Below are positions 3,001 to 60,900 of a DNA stretch of 64,000 nucleotides, one piece after another. Position numbers and translations under genes: made by a program. The stretch comes from Liolophura sinensis (taxonomy: Eukaryota > Mollusca > Polyplacophora > Chitonida > Chitonidae): NCBI RefSeq assembly GCF_032854445.1, contig NC_088306.1, forward strand, positions 26,137,764 to 26,201,763, in the 5' to 3' direction. The notes under the pieces were generated by a model, which saw nothing but the letters and a program-made list of their open reading frames with translations, had not been told where the DNA came from and made no database searches. Positions within the stretch are counted from its first letter, which is position 1. Each line of letters opens with the position of its first letter.

Positions 3001-6000
3001 TGAAAATAAACCACAATGCTTGAAAATAAAGTGCAAGATGTTTAAAATGTTGCTGTTGGAGATTTCTCACCTTTGACCAGTGAGGTGATATGTCTGTATT
3101 CAGATGCACAAGTATCTAGTTCAGCAGTCATAAAATTTTGCCCCCATATTGCGTCATCTTTCCACATTTAAAAGGGCAACTTTCAGAGCAATTTATGTAC
3201 ATATTTGATTTGACTTTGGTGACAAAACAACACTGGTTGGATGGACCAAATTCTGGACTTCACAAAAAGGTATAATTTTATCAGCCTACACAGGATAATG
3301 CCTCCAAAATATGTTTAAATAAACACGCAAACATGCGGAAAGGTTGAAGAATGACAGTATGTGCATGCAGATAAATAAATATCAGAGAATGACATTTGGT
3401 GTCATCTTGAATGAAGGATGGAGTGACTTACCTGGCAAACGTATCCCGAAGAGCCTCTTCACTTGCTCCTATGTACTTACTTAGCAACTCAGGGCCCTGA
3501 GGACGCAAACCAGAAAGAATCACATTTTTATTAGTGACAGATTTGTTCTCTGTATTTCACCACAGGTTTGGCCTGTAAAATGTGCTGTTACAAGCACATA
3601 AATAGTAAGTGCTCAAGAAGTTAAACTCAGAACAAGAAAGAACTCAAATTGTGGTGGGCAAATACTGTAGTTCTGCAGTGAAATAAATACTTCCTCGTGC
3701 AAAATGTTTCAATAGTACGCTTAGCTATTTGAATTTTTGAATACGCCTTAAGACATTCAATGTACATATATATGGGCCCAGGATAGAATATATATGGGCC
3801 CAGAATAGAATGTATAGAGGCTTTTTTAGTATGAATGGAAACCATTTCCATGAGTTATGAGGTGTCAGAAAAACTGTATGTAGACTGCTACTTTATTTCA
3901 CATGACTGACACTAACATCTCAACCCACCTTAATACTGATGAAGTTAAGTCCGCACTCCTTAGCGACGGCACGTGCCAACAGTGTTTTGCCTGTTCCGGG
4001 TGCACCAAACAGCAGCAACCCAGACCTAAGCCTCAGGGGGCAGTTAGCAAACAGTTGAGGGTACTGAAACAGATCATTGCAGCTGTCTCAATTCCTTAAT
4101 ATAGATCCCAAACTTAATAAAGAACAACCTCCATGAAGATTTACTCCTGTCAATTCTGTTGCTAGGGCTTTACTTATTCATGATCTTTAAATACATTTGA
4201 AATTGCAGTGTAAAAAAGTGTACAGAAGTTTTTTTCATTATTGTTCCCTTTCTTTTATTTAATATTGTTCCTGATATTTATTCATCATTGTTATTTATTT
4301 ATTATTGCTCATGTTTTTTTCTCATTACTGTTTCTCTGTGATTTCATGACACCTTCAGCATGATTTCAGTGGTGTGTGTCCGTAGCGAGACAGTCCTGAT
4401 GTAGTTATACTGGCATACAGTGGTGTGTGTCCGTAGCAAGACAGTCCCGATGTAGTTACACTGTTATACAAGCATACACATTTCAGTGACGTGTGTCTGT
4501 AGCAAGACAGTCCCAATGTAGTAACACTGGTATACAAGTATACACATTTCATTAATGTGTGTCCACAGCAAGAAAGTTCCGATGTAGTTATACTGGCATA
4601 CAAGCATACACATTTCAGTGGTGTGTGTCCGTAGCAAGACAGTCCCGATGTAGTTATACTGGCATACAAGCATACACATTTCAGTGGTGTGTGTCTGTAG
4701 CAAGACAGTCCCGATGTAGTTACACTGGTATACGAGCATACACATTTCAGTGATGTGTGTCCGTAGCAAGACAGTCCCGATGTAGTTATACTGGCATACA
4801 GTGGTGTGTGTCCGTAGCAAGACAGTCCCGATGTAGTTATACTGGCATACAAGCATACAAATACAGAATCTATAGAATGTATACAGAAAAATACATCCAA
4901 GATATCATACTTCAAAGTAAGCAAAATAGTGCAAATTGAGAAAAATGTAAGCCATGTCATCTTTTTAACCAATGCAGCATTTCTATACCCCTGGACGTCA
5001 GCTGTTTCTGCTTACGTCACCAGAACAGTGTTTTGCATGTTTACCATATGAAGGTGGAGTACGAATGACACAGCATCATGTTCCCGGTTTCCCTAGTGTA
5101 GCGTATCCGATGACCTCATCAAAATTCCTGGTTAACCTTGATTTACAGAGTTACTAAGCAAAGTCCAAACAAAATGACTGTGGCCGTTGAGGTCATTTTC
5201 CACACATCTTGAAGACACTAGTGTTGCCCAGTTTTTGATCTCTGTCATTGTTTTGAGCATAGATCAAGGTTGTTGCCATGATTGTCAATTCTTCTGTCTC
5301 AGGCCTGGGACTACGCTATGTTAAGCGCATTTACCATGATGGCGTAACTCTTCAACATGTGTGTTATCATGGAAGCTGCTCCAGGTGCAAATTGTGACAC
5401 AGGTTTGTGATGCTTCGTAACACAGGCCCCAGGCCCAGTCTGCACATTTCCAGATTGGACCCTACGATATCAGAGTGATGTGATGTGATTTGATGTTGCT
5501 TTACGGCAAGGTAAGATCAATCAGCCAATTTTAGCTTCGGTGGTATATGTAATGGAGAAAACTAAGTACTGTTTCAACCACTAAAGCACTTTTTTCAGTG
5601 GAATATATGTATACAATTATCGTGAAAATGATGCTAAAAATGATTGTTTGTGTCACTAAAAATGTAAGATTCACAAAACTGTGCATCTTATTTCTCTACA
5701 ACCCAAAGTTCTCTCAGAGGATGAAAATGCTGAAGAACACAAGTAGGTAAATAGGAATAAATTAATCATCTGAATTAAGAGTTCTTGGATGAGTCTCGGT
5801 GTCAAATATTGCAAAAGTGGTCAGATTCTGACTGTAGCGTTATCTGAACACAAATACTTAAAAACAATATGCATGGAGCTATACCACGCCATAAAGCCGT
5901 GACTTTGGTTGTAATGGAGTAACTAGATAATTGTATATTCTAGCAGTTGTAATTAATAACTTCATGCAGTTCTCAGCATGTCTAGCTCACCAACCTTAGT

Positions 6001-21888: not shown

Positions 21889-24582
21889 ATGTACGAGTCA
21901 GCTCTAAGTTTACGTTTCAACAATATGGAAGACACTTTGGACGTCTCGACCAAAATCAGATTAATTTTCCGTAAAGATGCAGAATTGCAGACGTTAGATG
22001 TCAGCAGCACAGATGCGTTGCTAAGGTTACATGTCGGGCAAACGATTGCACTAGCTGTTGTGGCTGTTTATGCCGGAAAACATGCGCACAATGAGATTGA
22101 AATGGATGGTTGGCGATCTCGGGTTCGTCTGCTGTCAGTCCACGCATGTTTGTCTCCGAGAGAGGCTCAGAAAGATGGGGCATGTCCGACTCGAACTGAC
22201 GACAATTTCGCACAGTCGACAAAACGATGTCCACCGTGTTCAAGCTTTGTAGAAGGACTGGAAAATGAGTGTATCTGTGATTTTAAATTGGTACATATTT
22301 TTAAACTGTTAATTAAAATGGTCATATATTTGTAAATGCATATTAATTTATTAGGTAAGGTCTTTTCTGGTTTTGGCTTGATAAATGAAACCGTGTGGTG
22401 TTAAAGTTGAGAAATCCACCAAGTGATTTATTTGTCTGATCAGTGTTTAACATTTCTAATGAAAAATTTTTCATTCACACAACAGTGTTCGAATTCTGTC
22501 AACATGTCTTAGGCCATAATGTCGTATTGACAATTGATTCCTTTTTTCCCGTCAAAACAGGCGTAGTTGATTATTAGTGTGTACAGCAGAACAGTATTTA
22601 TATTTCATTATCATTATTTCAGCAAATTTTACCTTATGCAACAATATCTGTCAAAAAATGAAATAATGTGTTTATATGTGAAGGTAAACTCTGCTCTTCT
22701 TACGTTAAATGACTTATTTGCTGGTGGGTGCCTGGAAACAAGGAATCATGTATGATAGGCCTCACACATAAATGAAACTGAATTGCCCAAATAAAACTAA
22801 CTCTTCAGCAGGTGCCTGACAAATAATAACCCATTCCCAGTTAAATGTAATTCTTTTTTCCAACTGAGATATTCCGGAACTCAGATATCTGGGCATTTGC
22901 TGTTATACTTGTGCCAAGATGCATACTCAGTCACACACAGCAATGAAAACATTGTCTAAATAACATGGGAGTTAATAGAAATCTCTGCTTCACATCCTCA
23001 TGCTTCAAAAACAGGTTGTGTTGACATTCACAATTTATATGTGCTTTGCATATTGTTCTGTTGTCTTACATACTATAAATTCTGGTTGTTGTCAGCCGTA
23101 CTGCTCTGAATATCGTCCCGTATTGTTCATTTTCCTATACCTTCTTTCACCTTTATCTTTCACCTCGTTGACTGCTTGCGGCTGACTTGTACTAGCGAAG
23201 TACAGTATGTCCACAGTCTCGAATCACTTAAATACATATACTGCTAAAGTGGCATATCTTAAACCACAATCACTAACAACTGACAGAGTTTCAACAGATG
23301 CTACCACTTTAGTTGTTGTAAAGATCTAAGACACATGAACATACAGTCTGCATGTTTAATTTTATGATGTGTAATTTAAATAACGTGCATGTCAACATTT
23401 GTACATTTCGCAGGACACTGAGCCAAAGTTTATTGATGACCTCAGCTGGGTTATTCCATTCTCGCTGACACTGAACTCCTTGCCAGGGCCTTGTGACAGA
23501 GTGGCGCTGAACGTGACCGTGTGGCTGGCAGATAAAGTTCACCCACCAGGAAGTAAGGCACTGGAACAGCTAGATATGATCCTGGAACCTAACGAGGGCA
23601 TCTTATTGGATGACAAGATTGTGTCACGTCTTGGTTGTAAGTCTGATGATGTGTTGTTGTGTCTGCACATTGGAGTTGTCAGCAATTGACAATATTGTTA
23701 ATTGGAATTAATTTTACCACAGACCATTTCTTGTGATTACATTGGCTGAGATTACTGTGGGTTTCAAACCCATGACCTCATAGATGTAGTTAAAAATTGG
23801 TTACATTTACATGTTATAAAGGAAGGTCTTTGCTCTAAAAATTCACCTGAAAAAAAAAAACAAGCATTTTAAAAGGAAGGCAATTGAAGGTCATACAGTA
23901 TTATCTTTGGCACTGACATTTTCCCAGTAGCATATCATTCTACCTTCCAGATAAAACATAAACTATTTTTCTAATGTGAAAAGATCTTGCAGGACTAGGC
24001 AATATGTGTAACTTATTCAAAATCAAGGTGTTTAGGTCAAATTCATTTGTTATTTGCATCGTTCAGACACATTTGGATGCAGCTGCTTATCAGGTGAGGT
24101 TGTCATGCTGTAGCACGAGACAAAAATATTGATTTCATTGAATATTAATCTGCAAATAGAAATTTATATGGTCTTACAATAATAGATGGTTTTTAATGTA
24201 GAATCAAGGGAGACAACTTTGCTTTGCTTGTTGTTTTCTCCCTGAAGTCCGTCTGGTAACTTGTAAACTTGTTAACACCCAAGTTTTGTACTTTTTTTGT
24301 TTCTTTTTTTTTCTGTTTCAAATCTTTAAAATAAACAACAAACCAGAAAAAAGATAAATAAAATTGTTTGTATATCTGTACACTAAAAGTGTAATTTGTC
24401 CTTTTGTATTTTGATAAAATTGAATTATTCCCATGTACTAAGGAGTTACAGGTTTTTCATGGTTTTAAGTGTTTATTTTTAACTATGTGTTTCAGTTTCT
24501 CATCTGATTGATGTCTATGATCCTCCTGTTGTTGATGTTAAGCTCATTGTTGTTGGTGGAAAACACAATCTGCTGCTAAAAG
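21889..24582 (+). CDS. TRAPPC14: TRAPPC14 exons 1-3
   Basis: Exon 1 (21889-22290, 134 codons) starts MYESALSLRF and contains LLRLHVGQTIALAVV, comparable to the hydrophobic strand near the vertebrate N-terminus; the rest is poorly conserved and its GTACAT donor is the least certain junction. Exon 2 (23414-23636) reads IDDLSWVIPFSLTLNSLP, and exon 3 (24496-24582) PPVVDVKLIVVGGKHNLLLK, both aligning well with human segments around VSLDRLPPG and QFTVAGKHLTVLK. Intron 1 (22291-23413) shows only a weak repeat fragment near 22435; I see nothing else in introns 1 and 2. Confidence 0.85.
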
Positions 24583-27500
24583 GTTTGTATTTGTTTGATT
24601 GACTGGTGATTGACAGACTAAAAATATTTAATATGTATGAAAGAAAGGCCATCATTTGTATGGCTAAAGAAACTTACGTACCCGTGGTAATACACTGATC
24701 TTTTGCAAGGGGAATCTATGCCTATGTAAGGATTGAAAAGAATACCTTTATATGCCAGGTGAAAAATACTCGGTCCGGAGAGTAAAAGAAGGCTAAAATA
24801 TGAAGTAATGTTCATCAGACAGACATCTGAAAACTATACGTGTAGATACTTTCATTTATCTTCTTAGATTTTTTGAACAGTGTTAAAGGAACTTAAATAT
24901 TTGAATTCTATCGTGGGCTTTATTGGCCATAATGAGGGTGTTTAGGATACTTATGTCACATGACCTTTTTTCCCCTTATGTTCACCAGAAGGAAGAAATA
25001 TTCGAGAACACTATTTCAGTAATCTTTTACTCAAGGCTGAAGAGAGCTATTCCAACAGTCACTGTCATGTGTGGAGTTGGAAAAACTTCCTGTGAGGTCA
25101 AGAGTTCCTAAACCATGATAGTATAGTTGACCTTTGAATTCAAATGTTTGAATACCGTTAACTCTTCACAAAAATCCATAAAAAATAAATGAAAGTATAT
25201 TTAGACATAGTTTTAAGTGCTTCATGTGGTGTTGCCTACTTTGATTTTGAGTGACCTTTTCCTTTAAAGTTTTGAACCTGGGTTTTGTAGGTAATATTTT
25301 ATGCCTATTTATCTCCCTGTACACATGTATCTGTCTGTTTACTGCACAGTGAAGAACCAGTCCCACATGGCTGTTCCCATGCATCTGTCTGTTTACTGCA
25401 CAGTGAAGAACCAGTCCCACATGCCTGTACATATGTATCTGTCTGTTTACTGCACAGTGAAGAACCAGTCCCACATGGCTGTTCACATGCATCTGTCTGT
25501 TTACTGCAGTGAAGAACCAGTCCCACATGCCTGTACACATGCATCTGTCTGTTTATTGCACAGTGAAGAACCAGTCCCACATGGCTGTTCACATGCATCT
25601 GTCTGTTTACTGCACAGTGAAGAACCAATCCCACATGCCCGTTCACGTGCATCTGTCTGTTTACTGCACAGTGAAGAACCAGTCGCACATGCCTGTACAC
25701 GTGCATCTGTCTGTTTACTGCACAGTAAAGAACCAGTCCCACATGGCTGTTCACATGTATCTGTCTGTTTACTGCACAGTGAAGAACCAATCCCGCATGT
25801 CTGTTCACATGTATCTGTCTGTTTACTGCACAGTGAAGAACCAGTTTCACATGCCTGTACACATGCATCTGTCTGTTTATTGCACAGTGAAGAACCAGTC
25901 CCACATGGCTGTTCACATGCATCTGTCTGTTTACTGCACAGTGAAGAACCAATCCCACATGCCCGTTCACGTGCATCTGTCTGTTTACTGCAGTGTGAAG
26001 AACCAGTCACACATGCCTGTACACGTGCATCTGTCTGTTTACTGCACAGTAAAGAACCAGTCCCACATGGCTGTTCACATGTATCTGTCTGTTTACTGCA
26101 CAGTGAAGAACCAGTCCCGCATGTCTGTTCACATGTATCTGTCTGTTTACTGCACAGTGAAGAACCAGTTTCACATGCCTGTTCACGTGCATCTATCTGT
26201 TTACTGCACAGTGAAGAACCAGTCGCACATGCCTGTACACGTCCATCTGTCTGTTTACTGCACGGAACCAATCCCCCATGCCTGTTCACATGTATCTGTC
26301 TGTTTACTGCACAGTGAAGAACCAGTCCCACATGCCTGTTCACATGTATCTGTCTGTTTACTGCACAGTGAAGAACCAGTCCCACGTGCCTGTACACTTG
26401 TATCTGTTTACTGCACAGTGAAGAACCAGTCCCACATGCCTGTTCACGTGCATCTGTCTGTTTACTGCACAGTGAAGAACCAGTCCCACATGCCTGTTCA
26501 TATATCTGTCTGTTTACTGCACAGTGAAGAACCAGTCCCACATGCCTGTACACATGTATCTGTTTACTGCACAGTGAAGAACCAGTCCCACATGCCTGTT
26601 CATATATCTGTCTGTTTACTGCACAGTGAAGAACCAGTCCCACATGCCTGTTCATATGTATCTGTCTGTTTACTGCACAGTGAAGAACCAGTCCCACATG
26701 CCTGTTCATATGTATCTGTCTGTTTACTGCACAGTGAAGAACCAATCCCCCATGCCTGTTCACATGTATCTGTCTGTTTACTGCAGTGAAGAACCAGTCC
26801 CACATGCCTGTTCACATGTATCTGTTTACTGCACAGTGAAGAACCAGTCCCCCATGCCTGTTCATATGCATCTGTCTGTTTACTGCACAGTGAAGAACCA
26901 GTCCCACATGCCTGTTCACGTGCATCTGTCTGTTTACTGCACAGTGAAGAACCAATCCCCCATGCCTGTTCACATGTATCTGTCTGTTTACTGCACAGTG
27001 AAGAACCAATCCCACATGCCCGTTCACATGTATCTGTTTACTGCACAGTGAAGAACCAGTCCCACATGCCTGTTCATATGCATCTGTCTGTTTACTGCAC
27101 AGTGAAGAACCAATCCCCCATGCCTGTTCACATGTATCTGTCTGTTTACTGCACAGTGAAGAACCAATCCCACATGCCCGTTCACATGTATCTGTTTACT
27201 GCACAGTGAAGAGCCAGTCCCACATGCCTGTTCACGTGCATCTGTCTGTTTACTGCACAGTGAAGAACCAGTCCCACATGGCTGTTCATATGTATCTGTC
27301 TGTTTACTGCACAGTGAAGAACCAGTCCCACATGCCTGTTCACATTTATCTGTCTGTTTACTGCACAGTGAAGAACCAATCCCACATGCCTGTTCACATG
27401 TATCTGTTTACTGCACAGTGAAGAACCAGTCCCACATGCCTGTTCATATGCATCTGTCTGTTTACTGCACAGTGAAGAACCAATCCCACATGCCTGTTCA

Positions 27501-30500
27501 CATGTATCTGTTTACTGCACAGTGAAGAACCAATCCCACATGCCTGTTCACATGTATCTGTTTACTGCACAGTGAAGAACCAGTCCCACATGCCTGTTCA
27601 TATGCATCTGTCTGTTTACTGCACAGTGAAGAACCAATCCCCCATGCCCGTTCACATGTATCTGTTTACTGCACAGTGAAGAACCAATCCCCCATGCCTG
27701 TTTACATGTACAACTGCAAGGTGCTGCCGAGCTCGTGTCACTGGGCCACCCGCACCCCAGAGGATCCAGAATGTCATCATGATACCAAAGATGGGTGAGT
27801 GCCTGACGCCATCGTAAGAGGGGAGAGGGGAGGATTGCAGGATGTGGAAATTGTCAGTCTGTTGAGAACGGTCAATACTTCTGCCATAAATAGCCACTGA
27901 CACAGTTTTGATAATACCACAAGAATATTTTCTGGTGAAAATTCAAGCCAGCAGAATGCATATGTACCTTTTTTTTTTTTTTTTTTGGCTTTAATAGAAA
28001 AGAGAACGAATAATATAACCCGAGCTGATAAGAAAGAGGGGTGAAAATAGATCTAAACGGTTTGTATTAGCTCGCTGTTATGTGGTGATGTATTGCGAGT
28101 GTGGGGGAAAAATGTTGTAGGTGTCGGTGTTGGTGTCTGTGTTGGTGTCCAAGTAAGCTTTTTTGTTTGGGTCAGTTGAGTAAGGTTTTATGTTTGGGTC
28201 AGTTGAGTAAGCTTTTTTGTTTGGGTCAGTTGAGTAAGGTTTTATGTTTGGGTCAGTTGAGTAAGGTTTTATGTTTGGGTCGGTTGAGTAAGGTATTTTG
28301 TTTGGGTCTGCTAGTCTCACAGTCTTCACATCACCTTTATGAAACTTGGTGGGAATAATGAACATGATTTGGACATTTACTGATTTTGATTATAAATTAG
28401 GGATGTTTGCATTATTCAAATTATCAGGTCTTTGACTCAGCGTTTTACCCAGTACTATGGTGGGCCAGGGTAAGGTTTTTTTGTTTGGGTCAGCTTTTGC
28501 CACAGATTTTACCTCATGTTGCTGAAACTTGTTGGGTACGATGGGCATGCTTTGAAGACTGAATGAAATAAATGATTTTAAATAAATAGTTATATTTGTA
28601 TTTTTATTCAGATTATCAGGTTTTTTGACTTTGCTATTTTATCTTAGCCAGTACTATTCAGTTTTGCTGGCCAGGGTAAGGATTTATGTTTAGATCAGAT
28701 ATTCCAACAGTTTTCACATCATTTTTATGAAACTTGGTGGGAATGATGAACAGGATTTGGGAATTTCCTCATTTGAATAAGCAGGGATACTTGTATTCTT
28801 AGCTCACTGTTATGAAGTAAACTTTTTTTGTTTTGGTCAGCTGTTGTCAAAGTTTTCATGATATGTTCATGAAACTTCTTGGGCAAAGATTAACATGCTT
28901 CAGACTACCATTTGAAGTCAAGCCATTATCTGCGAGCTGTCGGGTTACTCTTAACACTTGTTTATTTATGTGATTGGTGTTTTATGCCGTACTGAAGAAT
29001 ATTTCAGGATGAAACCACAACTATCAGCAAGTTGCTGGCAGACCTTCCAGAAACTTAAGATTCAAATTTATGCAAAGAATTATTGTATGATATAAAATAT
29101 CTGTATTTTATGTCTGTATTTAGAGAGACTTCTTACCTACTTTGTGTTGGAATCTGAACAGTCTATTGCTATTTGCAGTAACTATCAATATATATATATG
29201 TAATTCTTTCTCTTGTTTTTCATATCAGTTTTAAATCTTCATTTATAGGACTTCTGAAGAGTCACATGACAACTGTGTAACCATGACAACAAGCATCAAG
29301 AAGAAGGACATGATTCTGTTTCCAAGGGAGGAGTTGTCGCTGTTGTATCAACTCAGATACCAGGGTATTATCAAACAACACCGGCTCTCCGTAAGAATTT
29401 ACCTAAAAATTATGATTTATTGTAAGAATTATTTGTTGTCGGTGATAGATCTATAGTCCAAGATTGCCCTGAGGTTATGTATGGCAAAACTCTGTTCAGC
29501 CATTGATGGCCCTAAACTGACATAAAAGTGCGCTCCGTTTAAAAAGCCTGATGCAGTTGCTATGGCAGTTTGTCACAGTGTTTGAGACAAAAATTACGCA
29601 TTAAAGACATCTCAATGGCCTGAAGTTTGCAGACACTTGTGTTTTTTATCTTTTTTTTTTATCTATCGATTTTTTGCAATCACAGCTTTCTTGCGATTAA
29701 GTCACATAGGCCTGAGTTTCCTTGGTAACGCTCAAAGCGAATGGCTGAACTGACAGCCTCAACATATTTGACAAGGGCAGATAACTGCATCATGCTATTA
29801 AATAGAATGCCCTCTGACCTGGGTTTGGGGTCATCCTTGGCCAAACAAAACTTTTGCATATCCTAGCGTCAAAGCAGTTAATAGATGTAGAGGCTGACAG
29901 CATCTGTGAAAAAACAAAGAGATAATGTATCCAGTGTAATTTTTTGAAAATTTTTTTATAAATCAAGTGAAGATCAAGAAAACTAAAACTTTCCTGGACG
30001 TCTCAATTTCATTGTTTCAAAAAGTAAATAAGAAAAACATAACCACAGATTCTTGGATTTTACTGTTTTTAAACCCTGGGCCCACTTGTTCGAAAGTTTA
30101 TTAGCTAATACTGGTATTAAGTCATATTTTGTACTTAAATTTTTAGCCAAACTCAGCAGCCAATGAGGTTCTCTGAAGTCAGTGTATAACAGCAGCAGTT
30201 TTGGTTCATATTTAAGACAATGTTACTCAGTTTTTTTTAGGCTAAGTACAAAATTGAAGAGTTAGCTTAAACTTAAATCTCATATTAAGTCTTGAACCAG
30301 TTTTGAACAACAGGGCCCAGGTTGTTTGTTATAATGTTGGTATTTCTATTTTTTCCTACGAGTAGAGCAATAGTTACAACGACAGAATGCATCAGTGTTG
30401 CTTCCCATTGAGGCACCACTGTAAATATCTTGACATTAATACACACCTTCTTCAGGGAGACCGTTTCATGATCTGACTGAAATAATGTTGAGAAAATACA

Positions 30501-33500
30501 GTGTTAAACATCAAGTAAACAGCAACTGAGCATAAATAGTTCAGCACTCTTGACTTCATTTTTACATTTTCTGTTTCAGGAGCTTTCATTGGCTGCCCAT
30601 CTGACATGGAGTTTTTCACCTCCAAAACAAGAGAATTGCACAAGAGTCATTACTACATACCTGTGAGTAACCTGTTCAATGCAAAATTTTGGGACAGTTG
30701 TATCAAATTACACATAGGTCTGCAGTAACCTGCAAACTTTTATGGGTTTCCCCCAGACCTTATGTCCTACCGCCATAATGCTGACTACGGCATAATTAGC
30801 GTATAAGTCGAATATTCTTGAGTAAGGTGTAAAGTCCGGTCTGCTAGCAACCTCCATGGCCTGATGGTTTAATGGTGTGTTAGCGTAGCACGAAGACCCA
30901 AGAGTTTAAATCCAGTTCATGCTGGCTTCCTCTCTAGTCATACATGTGAAGGTCTACAGCAACCTTCAGATGATCATGGGTTTCCCCTGAGCTCTGCCCG
31001 GTGTCCAGCCACCATAATGCTGGCCGCTATCATATAGATGAAATATTCTTGAGTACAGCTTAAAACACCAAGCAAATAAATGAAGAAATAATAAATAAAC
31101 AAATATATCCCCAAGTTGACATTGATATAAGACGGAATACAGAATTGAATCAAAGGAATGAGCCTCCTGAGTTTTTTATGTGAAAGTTTTCCCCAGTGAA
31201 AGGTTGTAAAAGATGTTTTCAGGTTTCTTTCTGCCTCAGCACATGTAGAAGACCATCTTTGGCTTAGTCGATTGTAACTGCTGCGGTAACTTCTGCCTTT
31301 ATCACGACAGTTACAATCTATTTAGCCTACAATGCCTATTTATAAATAAATCAATAAACAAATAAATAAATAACAGTTGTTTGTTAGTATCGTTTTTGTT
31401 TTACTTAAGATCGTTATATTGCTCATTTCACTCCTGTGGTACATGGGAAGTTCTGACAGCAACCTGTGGATGGCTATGTGTTTCCCCCGTTAAGCTGTTT
31501 CCTTTTTTTCTTGGAAAGGATTAAAGAGTAAAACACCAATTGATTAGATAAATTAAAATATTTATTTCCATTTCTGTTTAAACACAGTTTGCCAAAGATC
31601 TCCTCCAGGAAGCCACTGTTTGTAGTATCAGCATCATGCCCACATGTGACAGAGAAAATGAACAGGTAAGAACAGATCAGAGGTGTAATTATCTCAAAAC
31701 ATGACACCTGAATGGTGTGTGGTTATCAAAATATTTGACATGTCATATGACATCAGAGTGGTCCTGCTGGAAAGCGGATGACACATGTAGTCCGGCATTT
31801 GGGGATTGAAGATAACACCCTCCTTGGCAGATAATATCGTATGAATCATCTGGTTCTTTAGAGTAAACACAAAAAGCATGATGTACATAAATAATACTTG
31901 GAAATTTGATTGTCTTTAATATGCTCATTGTATATTGATTATTTGGGGGCATTTCTGGTTCATTTCACTATAGCTTTGATCTTGCTGCAACCTTAATGCA
32001 CTTCTTCCATGTCTAACATGTTTAACTCCCATACTCGATAGATGTGTATGTATGCTTGGGGTTTAACGTTGTACTTAACAATTTTTCAGTCACATGACAA
32101 CAAGGAGGCATTAGGTGTGAAATGTCCCAGTGGGCAAGAATTAATAAATGAGCAAGAACAAGATTGATTTATTTATAAATAGGCATTGTAGGCTAATGTG
32201 TCTTAAAATCCCAATCAAATAAATAAATAATCACAGAAAATATACTGTGTTGCGTATTTTTGTAGTTTTGCTGTGACGTACGACATCTGCAACAATCTCC
32301 AAGATTTCCTGGCTCTCAAACTTTACTGGTCGCCAGAGAGGGCTCTCTCAGCCAATCAGGATCCAGGTATTTCTGTCACTTTACTGTTGTGTATTCTGCT
32401 TCCCTCCTTGGCCCATTCGACTAAATTATTGCTGTCATTGGATAATGATAGTTGACACACTCACTTCAGGTCGCAGGCTTGAGCTTAAAGCTTGTTGATT
32501 CGGCTGAAATTTTAATTTCGCAGGTTTAGCAGGGCCTTGTTATTTATCTTGTTCTTGCTCATTTATTAATTCTTGCCCACTGTGGCATTTTCATTTTCTA
32601 CTTTAATTTTAATACCAGGAATGAATTTTATGTTCTATGTTACGTATTGATGAAGCATTTGAATCGTTTGTGTGTTTCAGTGTCTCGCCAGCATGTGGAG
32701 CGTCTCGTGGAGTCTGTGATCTGCCATGATCCCTGTGTCGAGCTAGGGTGAGTCGTTCGTCATTGACGTATTGAAGTTAACTCATTTTTTGTTTAACACA
32801 TTGCAAACTTATACAACAAAGGGTTTTATTGGTGGTGGAAATCAGGATGGCCAGCTACTCATACCCCAGTCCCAAGTCAGCTGATATTAGTTCTATTTGA
32901 ACTCTGTCTTCAGAACTTTTAATATAGGACAGATTAGAAAAAGCGACATCTGAGATAAAAAGGACTCAAAAAGGGTACCCTCTTCCACTTTTGTGAACAC
33001 AACCTTGGGCAATCCAGTGACCTTTTGCAAGTAACTGACAAGCTTCCCCACATTTGACAAATGTACTTACCACCCACCCCCACCCCGCCCCCGTCGAGCT
33101 AGCACAAAGTCTATGCCATATTGGTGGACGGCTGGTGATCTCTAACAACCTTTAGGTAAAACCCGCCTCGTAGGCAGCTTTACTAGCTTTGCCAAGTGTT
33201 TATTGCCACGGGGTCCCTCAACAACTGTGGAAACTGGGTTGTTTCTATTTTCATCTGACCACAATATTGTGCTTGTTTTAGTAACTTTTGTCCATTTAAC
33301 CATCTGTCTGTTCCTTTTGGCAGATGAGATTGGGAAAATGTTTTCTTTGTACTTTCAGACAGGTATGATAACTTCAGTATAACTTGCTGTTCTGGTTGTT
33401 TGACCTGAAGTTATGTTGTTCAGAACTCAGATTCATGGCAGTTTAAACATCAGGACCCTTTGTTTATTTTACTTTTATTTATTTATTTATTTGATTGGTG

Positions 33501-54947: not shown

Positions 54948-57900
54948 CCATTTTGACGATAAGTAAAGTCACGAGAATCAGGGCGAAGTTGCCGTATGGT
55001 CGATTATTCCCAGCCACCAATGTGTAAAACAGCGACCCTTCGGCGGCATCCGTATAAAATGTTGCGTACATCCTGATTGTTTTCTCGCCATTCTTGGTCA
55101 GATTTCTTAGTTGTTCCGGTGAAATGAAACACGTACCCTGAAGATATAAAAAAAAAACATGGCGTCATTTTGTGAAGAGAGATCTTCCATTTAAAACAAT
55201 CCACTTTGAAAAAAATAATCTTTTAAATTTAACAAAAAGTGTGTTAACTGAATTGATGCTAGAATGTAATATGTTATTTCGGACGATTACTCTGTTAAAT
55301 ATAACACACATATTCCAGTAATTCAAGATGCCGATTCCGTTAGACTAACAGGGTACTATGTTGAATATGACACAATAATGTGTTATAATAACACAATACA
55401 GCATTCTAGCATCACTCAGATAACAGACTTTCTAAAAAGTTAGAAGTAATAGACTAATTTTTGGAGAGTAATTAATCACGTGCACATTGTAACTGATCTC
55501 ACTGTTATAGGGGACCTATGGTGACGCTCATGTGTGCGTTGTCGCAGCTCTCGTTGAAGGCTAAGCGTTCTCCACAGACACACCCTTACGGCACACGTGG
55601 GAAAATTTGTCAGTAACTTGCCACAGGTTGATGTATGTTATATACACCAGGTGGGCTGCCACGAATAAACCTGACTGCCATGGTAAAAGTGATACAACTA
55701 TCGAATAAATAAATATATAAATAAATACTATAGTTTACTGAAAATCTTTGACGACATTGTCCTGTTACAAGATGAATAATTAAGACGAGTCGAATAAAAA
55801 TGCTGAATGCATACTTCAACATTTTCCCTTTTATTGTAAATTTATTACAAAGAGAATGCAGTCAGAATACATTTTCTAAATCATAATGTTAGACCCCATA
55901 AACTTACTTTTTCGACACCAAGAACTCATTGGCTCGGGTGATGTCATAATTATTCAAAAGCAAGTAGCATGCTGGATAATAGGCGTGGAGAGTAATTTTG
56001 TTTTTAAATGATTGCATTAAGAAGCGGTTAGAACAAACTCTACGCCGTAACACGGGCATGCTGGACAATGGGCGTGGAGAGTAATGTTTTTTTGCAATAA
56101 CTTCATTAAGAAGCGGTTAGAACAAACTGTACGCTGTAACACAGCCTACACCAAACAGGGTTCACATTAAAACCAATAGCTATTTAGGTAAATGGTGCCG
56201 ACCGGCCTTTCTGAAATAGAAATGTACCCACTGCAACCGTTGAGATCACTTTATTTCGGTACCGTAGCATCACGTAAAAAGGCACGTGATCTCCAATAGT
56301 CGCCCGCCGTTATAACATGCTGAACTCCACCCAATAATTATGACTTCACCCGAGGCAACGAGTTCTTGGTGTCGAAACCGAGCTTACACAGTTTAATATT
56401 ATGAATTACAAAAAGTGCTCCAACTTCATTTTCTTTGCAAGAACATGAATTTTAAACATGTCCATATGTAGAGGTGTTGTGGTGTTATATGTCACTGACT
56501 AAAAGCCAGTTTTGGTAGCGAGTATGACTGACTTTACAGACTAGGGATGTAGGAAGCTGGCTACAATAGGTTTTTAGTCGAGTCCATAGCTGCATCGAAG
56601 AAACCGAATGCTCACTTGATCCTTTTTCAGCGACACACAGGTGACGCATCTTTCTGGCTAAGTTCATATTCGTATATCTAGACGTACCAAAAAAACTGTT
56701 CAAGACAAATTAAAACCTGATTGGATACCAGTGATAAACTGGTTTAACTCAGAGTAATAGTAACGTTACATGGCACTGACTTTAGCACTGAAAATTTGGC
56801 TCCGACCACCTTGGGGTAACGTTAAAGCCATATACATGTATAGTTTGGGACATCAATGAAACAGGCCTTGTGAAATTTTACTTTGGGTATTATTGTCTTA
56901 CCTGTTGACAATCTTACCTGCAGTTTTGGATGCTTCCCTTAATATTCGAACCAGCGACCTCAGGGTCATCGAAACAGATATAAACCTTTGAAGAATAGTC
57001 TGAAAAGAAACACCTACCCGATCATTCATGGCTCCTCGGCATCGCCATTGGTGAGAGGCCATGTTGGGGTTCCTTGTGCGCGTGGACAGGTACGTTTTAA
57101 TAACGCCCGTGGACGTGGACAACTGTGAGTAGAAGACAAATAAAAACGTCAAAGGATTTTGAAGAAAACAAACTTTGGGACCTGTTGTTCAAAAGTGTAT
57201 TAAAAGTTAAGAAAGAATTAAATATCAGTCTGGCTTCAATGCAAAACTAACTACACTCAAGAAATTAATCTGTTGATTTTTTTTTGCAGAAAGTCTATTC
57301 TTTGAGTGATGCTAGAATGTATTCTGTTATTATAACACCATATTCTGTCATATTCAACATACCATCCTGTTAAAATAATAGAATGTTTAGGTTGATTTAT
57401 TAGAATATGTGTGTTATATCCAACAGAACAATCTGCTACAGTAACAGAATACATTCTAGCATCGCCCAGACGACAGACTTTCTGTTAAATTCAACAGAAC
57501 AATCTGCTACAGTAACAGAATACATTCTAGCATCGCCCAGACGACAGACTTTCTGTTATATTCAACAGAACAATCTGCTACAGTAACAGAATACATTCTA
57601 GCATCGCCCAGACGACAGACTTTCTGTTAAATTCAACAGATTAATTTTTAAGCGTATTGTTAATATAGGTCTTATAACTACTAATATGCTCTTGAACAAC
57701 AGGACATTATGTCAAAAGTTTTTAGAAGGAGCAGATGATGGTACCACGATTGTATGCTATTTCACTGTTAACCACACCATGGTTAACCATACTCAAGAAA
57801 TTTCCATCAAATAAGATTGTGGTCATTTTTATGGGTAAATAAAAAGAGACTTTCCGGAATAAAGTAAGCCAAATATCATATAAGAATATGCATGTATTTT

Positions 57901-60900
57901 CAGCGCATGAATAGCAATGTGAACTTTATAGGTCACACTGGCAGTGTTAGATCAAATACCGTTAATTTCCATTGCACGAATAGCAGCGTGGACTTTATGG
58001 GCCATATTGGCGGTGTTAGATTCAATATTGTTAATTTTCATTGCACGAATAGCAGCGTGAACTTTATGGGCCATATTGGCGGTGTTAGATTCAATATTGT
58101 TAATTTTCATTGCACGAATAGCAGCGTTAACTTTATAGGTCATACTGGCAGTGTTAGATTCAATATTGTTCATTTTCATTGCACGAATAGCAGCGTGGAC
58201 TTTATAGGTCATACTGGCAGTGTTAGATCCAATACTGTTAATTTCCACTGCATGAATAACAGCGTGGACTTTATAAGCCATATTGGCGGTGTTAGATCCA
58301 ATATTGTTAATTTTCATTGCACGAATAGCAGCGTGGACTTTATAGGTCATACTGGCAGTGTTAGATCCAATATTGTTAATTTCCATTGCATGAATAGCGG
58401 CGTGGACTTTATGGGCCATTTTGGCAATGTTAGATCAAATATCTTAACAGTGTAGTAGAATATTTTCTTTTCTAATCACCACTGAAGAACGCTAAGTGTT
58501 TTGTAATTAATTAATAATTTTTAAAATTATTATTGAGTTGGTATATTTAATGCTGTGCTCAGGGAAATTTCCCTTACACAAAATGGTCAGGTTTATGGCT
58601 AGAGGAAACCAGAGTTTCCAGAGTAAACCACCAAATTTCCCTAGATGCCTGTCAAACAGTCTGACTGAAACCGAAGCTGAAGCGGAATCTAGCTGGATTC
58701 GAACACACGAAATCATTTGTTAAAGGCCTGATAGCCGCATTGAGCTATGTCGATGTCATCACTTGATCAATCAACCAAGCCCTCTCGCATTAAAGTTTGG
58801 AGCCCTTCCATCACTGAAATTCCATACACGCAAGTCTGTATACTTACATCTATTTTAAATCCAAAATCTACATTCACGTTATAAGAGGCATATGATATTT
58901 GTCCCGCTTCCAACCGGCCAAACAGTGGATGACCCACGTTGAGAAACGCCGGCTCTGTTAAAAGGAGACAAATTCCATATACTTTCCATTTAAGCTATAT
59001 ACATATTCAAAGCCATATTCAAATATATTTTACTTTTCCAATGAAGGGCACCTCTGGGGATGGAGGAAACCAGACATGGCTAGTGGAAGAATATACATGT
59101 GAACGGGATATAGTTGACTATTTCTGTTGGTTTTGGGAACGGATTCTTCTTTTTTTTTATTCGATTAGTGTTTTACGCCGTACTCAAGAATATAACACTT
59201 ATACGACGGCGGCCAGCATTATAGTGGGTGGAAACCGGGCAGAAACTCATGATCATCCGCAGGTTACTGCCAGATCTTCCCACGTACGGCCGGAGAGGAA
59301 GCCAGCATGAGCTGGACATGAACTCACAGCGACCGCATTGGTGGGAGGCTCCTGGGTCATTGACGTGCTATTCCTCTCGGCCACTGAGCCTCCTCTCCCT
59401 CCTCGGGATTCTTAATATTTTATCAGATGACTATCTGTGTCAGTATATTAACTGTGCTGCCTCACTATACGGTAATGTCATACCGAAGACATCCGTTATG
59501 ACACTCTATCCAGACACAATTTAATGTAGATTGTATAACGCGCGAAGCATTCGTAATCTAAGAAAATTGTTATCACCATAGCGACATGTGTTAAAGACAA
59601 AACATGACGTGGTAGTTGAAATCATCTTATATAACCCAAAACTACTTTTGCATCTTGGAACCTCTACCCCTTATACAAAGATGATTGCGAAACGAGGATG
59701 ATCCAAGATTTCTTATCAAATCAATTTCCAGTAAACTACGTCACTTTAAACGACACGACAGGATCAGATGTAGGTGTCGAGTGTGCATGAAATAGGCAGC
59801 CCAGGTGTTCTTACAGATTGGTCTGTTTTCTGATATACTATAATGTCCTTTTATCACCTGCCGTAGTTCTAATGTTGTCTAATGTTGTTCATTTCCCTAC
59901 AACTATACTGTCTGTTCCTTTCTTGTCTGCTTGTTGTTGTCTCCCACGAGTTAAGTACCCGGATATGCCGCCCGGCAAAATTCTGATTGTTGCTAAACGT
60001 GTTTCAAAGTTATCAAAGAACTATAGTAACCCGGCAAAATTCTGATTGTTGCTAAACGTATTTCAAAGTTATCAAAGAACTATAGTAACCTTACGTGAAT
60101 ACTCCTTACAGCGCATGCCTCGCTTTCTACCTTCCGGTTTACATCACTGCCACCAATAGACAAGCTTGACCTTTGGAGTCTGTGAGACGCAGGTAGGCTT
60201 AGTTTAGGTTTAGCCTCATATCTTTAGATAAGGGAATGCATGTGTATAAAATATTATTAGAGACAAAGATTGAGAGATTGTTTATGTTTTCTGACATCAC
60301 TTCTTGCCTCATCATCGTAACCCCAAGTGCCTCGGCGTTGTTTAAGATTTCTGTACAAAATTTACTAGTAATGGCAGAGATGTAAACCGAAAGGTCGAGA
60401 GCGACCCATGTGCTGTAAGGACTATGCCTTACGTGTACAAACGAGCCGCTGAATTTCTGGACAAAGCCCTCAAGCTCCGTGTATACCCTGAGATGTGTCA
60501 CGTGACGGCAGCCTGATCCAATAATACGGAGGTATTCCTCGCTGACACCGCCCCCAATTCCGACAGCGAAGGTAGCCACGCCCATATCTCTGAGTGACTT
60601 CACAGCCTCCGTGGTGCCGGTGATGTCGTTGGAATTAGACTGAGTCAGAACTATGGCTGCAAATAAAATCAAACACTTCCTCTGCACTCGGGATTCTTCC
60701 GGATTTCTACTACATTTTTTTAGAATCTTTAGGGAAAAAAGGAAGATAAAAGCAATTCATCCAATCATGCATTGACCCAGTTTTGCAAATATACACTTCA
60801 CTAAGAATTGATCATAAGGCAATATACAATTATAGACCAATAATTTTAAGTTTAATTCATATGTTCGTTATACTGGGTCCGACTTCCACAAAAGCAACTT

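Follow-up and report, generated by a model that had tools for sequence, protein, structure and literature searches.

A tandem array of intron-exon boundary copies precedes an exon of TRAPPC14 in the chiton Liolophura sinensis

Analysis of 64,000 nucleotides of Liolophura sinensis (RefSeq assembly GCF_032854445.1, contig NC_088306.1, positions 26,137,764 to 26,201,763 of the forward strand, hereafter the window) showed that an intron of TRAPPC14 ends in a minisatellite whose units each copy the 3' splice site along with the beginning of the following exon, and 44 such copies stand upstream of the boundary itself. The array is probably a mirage, as tandem boundary copies of this kind are called in amphioxus: a by-product of minisatellite growth that is tolerated, not a selected switch, with exon definition picking the last acceptor.

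The minisatellite was placed at 25316-27708 by Tandem Repeats Finder (TRF), with a period of 54, 45.2 copies and 89% matches, and the window contained no N. It was made up of 44 upstream units of 48-54 bp and a terminal copy bordering the true exon. The motif CTGTTTACTGCACAG, allowing at most 2 mismatches, occurred 45 times in the window, in every case within 25335-27676, while 0.22 occurrences were expected and 0 of 100 shuffles reached 45; the 45th copy (27662-27676) is most likely the authentic acceptor. Spacings between the copies (n = 44) were 54 bp (31), 50 bp (8), 52 bp (3), 49 bp (1) and 48 bp (1), and the array unit adjoining the exon was 50 bp long. The 54-bp unit joined about 20 nt of intron end to 34 nt of exon start, and the unit alignment showed that the exon (27677-27794) resembled the array units over its first 34 nt. 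The earlier sequence-only reading had described a ladder of about 44 decoy acceptors, each a copy of a 3' splice site with its exon start; TRF, the CTGTTTACTGCACAG matches and the unit alignment bore this out, with the copied exon stretch shortened from the approximately 36 nt first given.

The following features describe the array.

25316-27708, plus strand: minisatellite of 44 upstream units and a terminal exon copy (TRF, unit alignment)
25335-27626, plus strand: 44 decoy acceptor copies, 43 with AG (CTGTTTACTGCACAG matches, matrix scores)

The AG was kept in 43 of the 44 upstream copies, one of which (25981) carried it 2 nt ahead of the usual junction place; the copy at 26251 was without AG. 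Distinct sequences numbered 31 among the 44 upstream units in the alignment. A block of units recurred (u05 identical to u11, u06 to u12 and u08 to u14, with near copies in between), which points to unequal exchange. An exact 25-mer covering acceptor and exon start occurred 36 times in the searched genome (609,464,459 bases, 632 contigs), all within the TRAPPC14 array and with the authentic copy counted; the assembly, in which only one allele is represented, held no second array location for it.

The TRAPPC14 gene model comprised three consecutive resolved exons (23414-23636, 24496-24582 and 27677-27794), listed here with their splice signals and a further coding piece downstream.

23414-23636, plus strand: exon two before the array exon, ending in phase 1 (CGCAG acceptor, GTAAGT donor, open frame, within the TRAPP14_N match)
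24496-24582, plus strand: exon directly upstream of the array, 87 nt, ending in phase 1 (TTTCAG acceptor, donor AAAAG/GTTTGT)
27655-27676, plus strand: most likely the authentic 3' splice site, in the last unit (sole open-frame acceptor of the 44 with AG; TRAPP14_N match spans the junction)
27677-27794, plus strand: array exon, 118 nt (phase-1 join to 24582, open frame; first 19 residues in the TRAPP14_N match)
27795-27800, plus strand: array-exon donor GTGAGT (6.0 bits on a crude matrix)
32264-32377, plus strand: downstream coding piece matching TRAPP14_C (PF23652; E 1.1e-05, 25.9 bits, just below the cut-off of 28)

The three exons joined in phase, and their 143-residue product matched the Pfam profile TRAPP14_N with 29.7 bits (cut-off 27; E 5.5e-7). 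The match ran over residues 13-122 and profile positions 155-265 (110 versus 111 positions); the array junction, at residue 104, falls inside it, and by the end coordinates the two spans differ by a net 1 position. Because the match crosses the junction with a net difference of one residue, the authentic acceptor is most likely that of the last unit; the same match, together with the only open frame, marks one array copy, at the level of sequence, as the border of a coding gene. The sequence-only reading had identified the last unit with the true exon, which was upheld on these grounds, as was its identification of the gene: from the profile match of the joined exons above the cut-off and the sub-threshold TRAPP14_C piece downstream, the array-bearing gene is TRAPPC14. 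Exon 24496-24582, whose donor faces the acceptor ladder, was located through a very weak TRAPP14_N match (window positions 24492-24665, E 3.24). A direct join from 23636 to 27677 without this exon gave no Pfam match and was rejected as a gene model. A profile search of the genome with PF23652 returned 0 matches at E 0.001, although the sub-threshold piece lies in the window, and a search of solved structures gave a single match (E 0.86), which was taken as chance. A sub-threshold TRAPP14_N match (E 0.066, 20.7 bits, profile 284-347) was also present on another contig (C4:10872629-10872826) and scored above the very weak match (E 3.24) that led to exon 24496-24582. The intron after the array exon carried a separate array at 28152-28308 (27 bp, 5.8 copies), whose unit contains the donor-like GAGTAAGG, which is no copy of the exon's donor.

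Splicing to any AG-bearing decoy would cut the reading frame short. All 43 such decoys led to a premature stop, no closer than 117 nt to the exon end; none of the 43 kept the frame open across the exon, and only the last acceptor was open. That decoy use would meet a stop had been foreseen in part, and in this allele it is universal. Exons formed from the nearest decoys would measure 168, 222, 272 and 322 nt, and leaky use of these decoys would be expected to yield premature-stop transcripts fit for nonsense-mediated decay (NMD).

Acceptor and donor strengths were scored with small, crude matrices from 65 acceptors and 59 donors of the same genome, picked and filtered by consensus score. The authentic acceptor scored 7.2 and the decoys 7.2 to 12.3, and all 43 AG-bearing decoys equalled or exceeded the authentic site, with some ties. 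None of the 236 GTs in the array reached the 5th percentile of the sampled donors (5.1), the best scoring 4.0, while the real donor at 27795 scored 6.0. Because no AG-bearing decoy scores below the authentic site and no array GT scores as a donor, acceptor strength fails to explain the choice and donor proximity can; since the last acceptor is distinguished by a donor 118 nt downstream, exon definition is suggested.

The array would have begun with a tandem duplication of the intron end (the pyrimidine-rich tract, the AG and probably the branch site) together with 34 nt from the start of the following exon, and would then most likely have been enlarged through unequal exchange. Of all the copies, just the one joined to the remainder of the exon adjoins a usable 5' splice site, and that last acceptor is most likely chosen through pairing across the 118-nt exon, with the 44 upstream copies removed with the intron. 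An occasional leak to the nearest decoys may give rise to premature-stop transcripts and their decay by NMD.

Similar arrays were present at other genes. A survey was made of the best-scoring exon matches, chosen regardless of repeats (kinesin 30 of 132, myosin 24 of 81, ABC 19 of 19). The resulting 73 loci (L006-L078) represented 56 distinct stretches and 218,381 bases, some from one gene. Within this sample TRF found 55 blocks of period 20 or more, covering 29,011 of the 218,381 bases (13%). Border-copying arrays stood at 4 of the 73 exon loci (kinesin 3 of 30, myosin 1 of 24, ABC 0 of 19), each of the four on a separate contig. The exon borders of the four loci were placed by reading the sequence, and coordinates are given in match direction.

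L011, 773-1529: kinesin acceptor array, 64 bp, 11 decoys, 8 with AG
L024, 1605-3168: kinesin donor array, 73 bp, at least 20 decoys, 19 with GT; reaches the locus end
L053, 1673-2197: myosin donor array, 66 bp, 7 decoys, 7 with GT
L006, 1825-2318: kinesin donor array, 125 bp, 3 decoys, 0 with GT

A boundary scan covered 146 automatically placed boundaries and counted 40-mers having a copy within 500 bp with at most 8 mismatches. Outside the exon such copies were found for 18 of the 146 at 400 bp, 12 at 60, 8 at 40 and 5 at 20, and for 5 at the boundary; inside the exon there was 1 at 20 and at 40 nt, 0 at 60-120 nt and 1 at 140 and at 160 nt. Locally repeated positions made up 11-12% at 200-400 bp outside exons. 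Two of the five flagged boundaries, those of L035 and L072, were rejected as intronic arrays with misplaced boundaries, and L011, L024 and L053 held; the L006 array escaped the scan and came to light on reading. One-by-one reading, which covered arrays at most 90 bp from the match edge, showed that the arrays near the exons of L007, L022, L015, L010, L045, L055, L059 and L074 did not copy the border. Arrays occurred often in introns and less often at exon borders, and the conserved exons sampled had almost none, a distribution as expected from tolerated random growth combined with selection against damage.

In all five arrays the core dinucleotide was ranked by how often it was retained, against the other dinucleotides of a 28-nt stretch around the junction. 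The TRAPPC14 test took in 41 of the 44 decoys, 3 having escaped the probe; AG stood in register in 40 of these 41 and ranked 15 of 27, being retained no better than the neighbouring dinucleotides. Ranks were 14 of 27 for L011 (AG 0.73, unit mean 0.85), 7 of 27 for L024 and 1 of 27, with ties, for L053; the 3 decoys of L006 all lacked GT, which makes its rank uninformative on GT. No consistent signal of selection keeping or killing decoys was found across the five arrays.

The sequence-only reading had known of no described system like this one, a statement overtaken by the amphioxus mirages, which are of the same kind. Available excerpts of two papers describe these as minisatellite-like tandem copies of intron-exon boundaries, named in Adh3 and present also in globin, TnC and PGBD5 genes, at acceptors as well as donors (PMC3087553, PMC3902484). 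The TRAPPC14 array resembles the cases in Adh3, globin BflGb6 and BflGb9, TnC and PGBD5, as far as those excerpts describe them, in its border copies, many with a splice signal: its tandem units span the border and 43 of 44 keep the splice dinucleotide, which in the published cases many, not all, copies do. In the same excerpts the amphioxus units are 150-160 bp in BflGb6, with haplotypes of 6 and 3 copies, and 10-72 bp in Adh3, whereas TRAPPC14 has 44 upstream units of about 54 bp in a mollusc host. Mirage length differs between BflGb6 haplotypes and is somatically unstable in Adh3, according to excerpts of PMC3087553. The amphioxus cases are described there with reverse transcription PCR (RT-PCR) and polymorphism data, whereas the TRAPPC14 array is known from sequence alone.

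Human IFI6 (6-16, G1P3) likewise carries a tandem repeat bearing splice sites. An excerpt of PMC4526556 reports that two downstream repeat units of its minisatellite act as donors and give three mRNA species, and the title of Turri et al. 1995, as cited in PMC4526556 and PMC2572611, speaks of a minisatellite supplying multiple splice donors. The IFI6 copies are thus donors reported as used, whereas those of TRAPPC14 are acceptors, predicted, and no array GT scores as a donor. Intron gain by tandem duplication (the Rogers model; human internal tandem repeats), in which extra splice sites arise, is described in excerpts of PMC2812944 and PMC3087553; in TRAPPC14, by comparison with that account, an existing intron has been lengthened and no new intron was seen. 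No mollusc or chiton mirage was found in open-licence PMC text, where a Conus paper had the word minisatellite only in a reference title and the other paper retrieved for molluscs dealt with lancelet.

Other explanations of the TRAPPC14 array were considered. It could act as a rheostat of poison acceptors, in which the decoys draw a share of splicing, their products are targets of NMD and copy number sets TRAPPC14 output. The universal stops, decoy scores at or above that of the authentic site and the ordinary size of the nearest-decoy exons would all suit such a role. Retention of AG among the decoys does not exceed that of other unit positions, however, and like arrays stand at donors and at an acceptor of kinesin and myosin genes; together these two observations argue against a dedicated function. 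In addition, amphioxus mirages are said to leave splicing undisturbed, as Adh3 data and globin RT-PCR suggested in the available part of PMC3087553. A rheostat is accordingly judged unlikely. The array might instead be a source of protein repeats, with decoy use inserting 18-residue repeats into TRAPPC14, as the sequence-only reading had also envisaged. The 54-bp units are open in the frame of the array exon, and stop-to-stop frames through the array reach up to 442 codons, but none of the 43 decoys leads to an open in-frame product, and TRAPP14_N matches across the authentic junction with no need of an added repeat. Because the adjoining unit is 50 bp and stops follow all AG-bearing decoys, no in-frame 18-residue insertion arises in this allele, for which the idea is refuted and is scarcely credible overall. 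Long arrays are also hard to assemble, and a Liolophura japonica genome was sequenced to about 14X HiFi coverage, as stated in an excerpt of PMC11068029, which raises inflation of the copy number or misplacement of the array by the assembler. Such an artefact is very improbable given that the window has no N, that the mean HiFi read in that excerpt is 8.3 kb compared with 2.4 kb for the array, that 31 of 44 units are distinct and that the exact 25-mer has a single genomic place.

Several points weigh against a tolerated mirage with exon definition at its last acceptor. Use of that acceptor and silence of the decoys are both deduced from the DNA, and the splice matrices, besides being small and crude, are in part circular. 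Neutrality of the array is most likely, and it is argued from the lack of evidence for selection. The 0 of 3 GTs in L006 and the 8 of 11 AGs in L011, below the unit mean, could mean selection against decoys at those loci, and the first 25 nt of the aligned TRAPPC14 unit are less variable than the rest, which could mean constraint. In lancelet PGBD5, according to an excerpt of PMC3902484, a predicted exon, omitted by that paper's authors, falls inside the boundary repeats.

The window and the assembly held further repeats. Two arrays at 1125-1910 (72 bp, 11 copies) and 4367-4851 (51/66 bp) were intronic to a minus-strand AAA-ATPase gene and, examined by eye, copied no readable border. An array at 57896-58442 (69 bp, 7.9 copies) stood 2-3 kb from exons belonging to a minus-strand VWA-domain gene; judged by reading, the array unit was open on that strand, and no Pfam family matched it at E 0.1. 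Elsewhere in the assembly, contig C99 (8348-102844) carried seven cox1 matches about 15.5 kb apart, corresponding to tandem mitochondrial genome copies, separate from the 15,209-base contig C632; these copies may be either an assembly artefact or a nuclear insertion. On a mitochondrial contig located with the Pfam COX1 model, nad3, nad2, cox1 and cox2 were recognised by eye to follow one another in this order, which is molluscan, and their frames were open under genetic codes 5, 9 and 13.

What may be new in the TRAPPC14 mirage is the phylum, the copy number, the stop reached from every AG-bearing decoy and an authentic site that scores lowest or tied, together with the sign that such arrays may be frequent in the genome. 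In the open-licence literature searched, mirages appear only as an amphioxus oddity, and the mollusc case with four more suggests that they may be a general result of fast minisatellite growth. A wider proposal, which is unlikely, is that the genome is pervaded by boundary minisatellites, possibly thousands of them judging from the 4 of 73 sampled exon loci, and became mirage-rich independently of amphioxus, and that array length and leaky choice vary the NMD share of TRAPPC14 between individuals, and perhaps between cells, with the authentic acceptor, the lowest (with ties) of 44, picked only by its nearness to the donor. The locus is a natural splicing experiment, in which near-identical acceptors differ mainly in their distance to the only good donor, and acceptor use along the ladder would measure exon definition in vivo.

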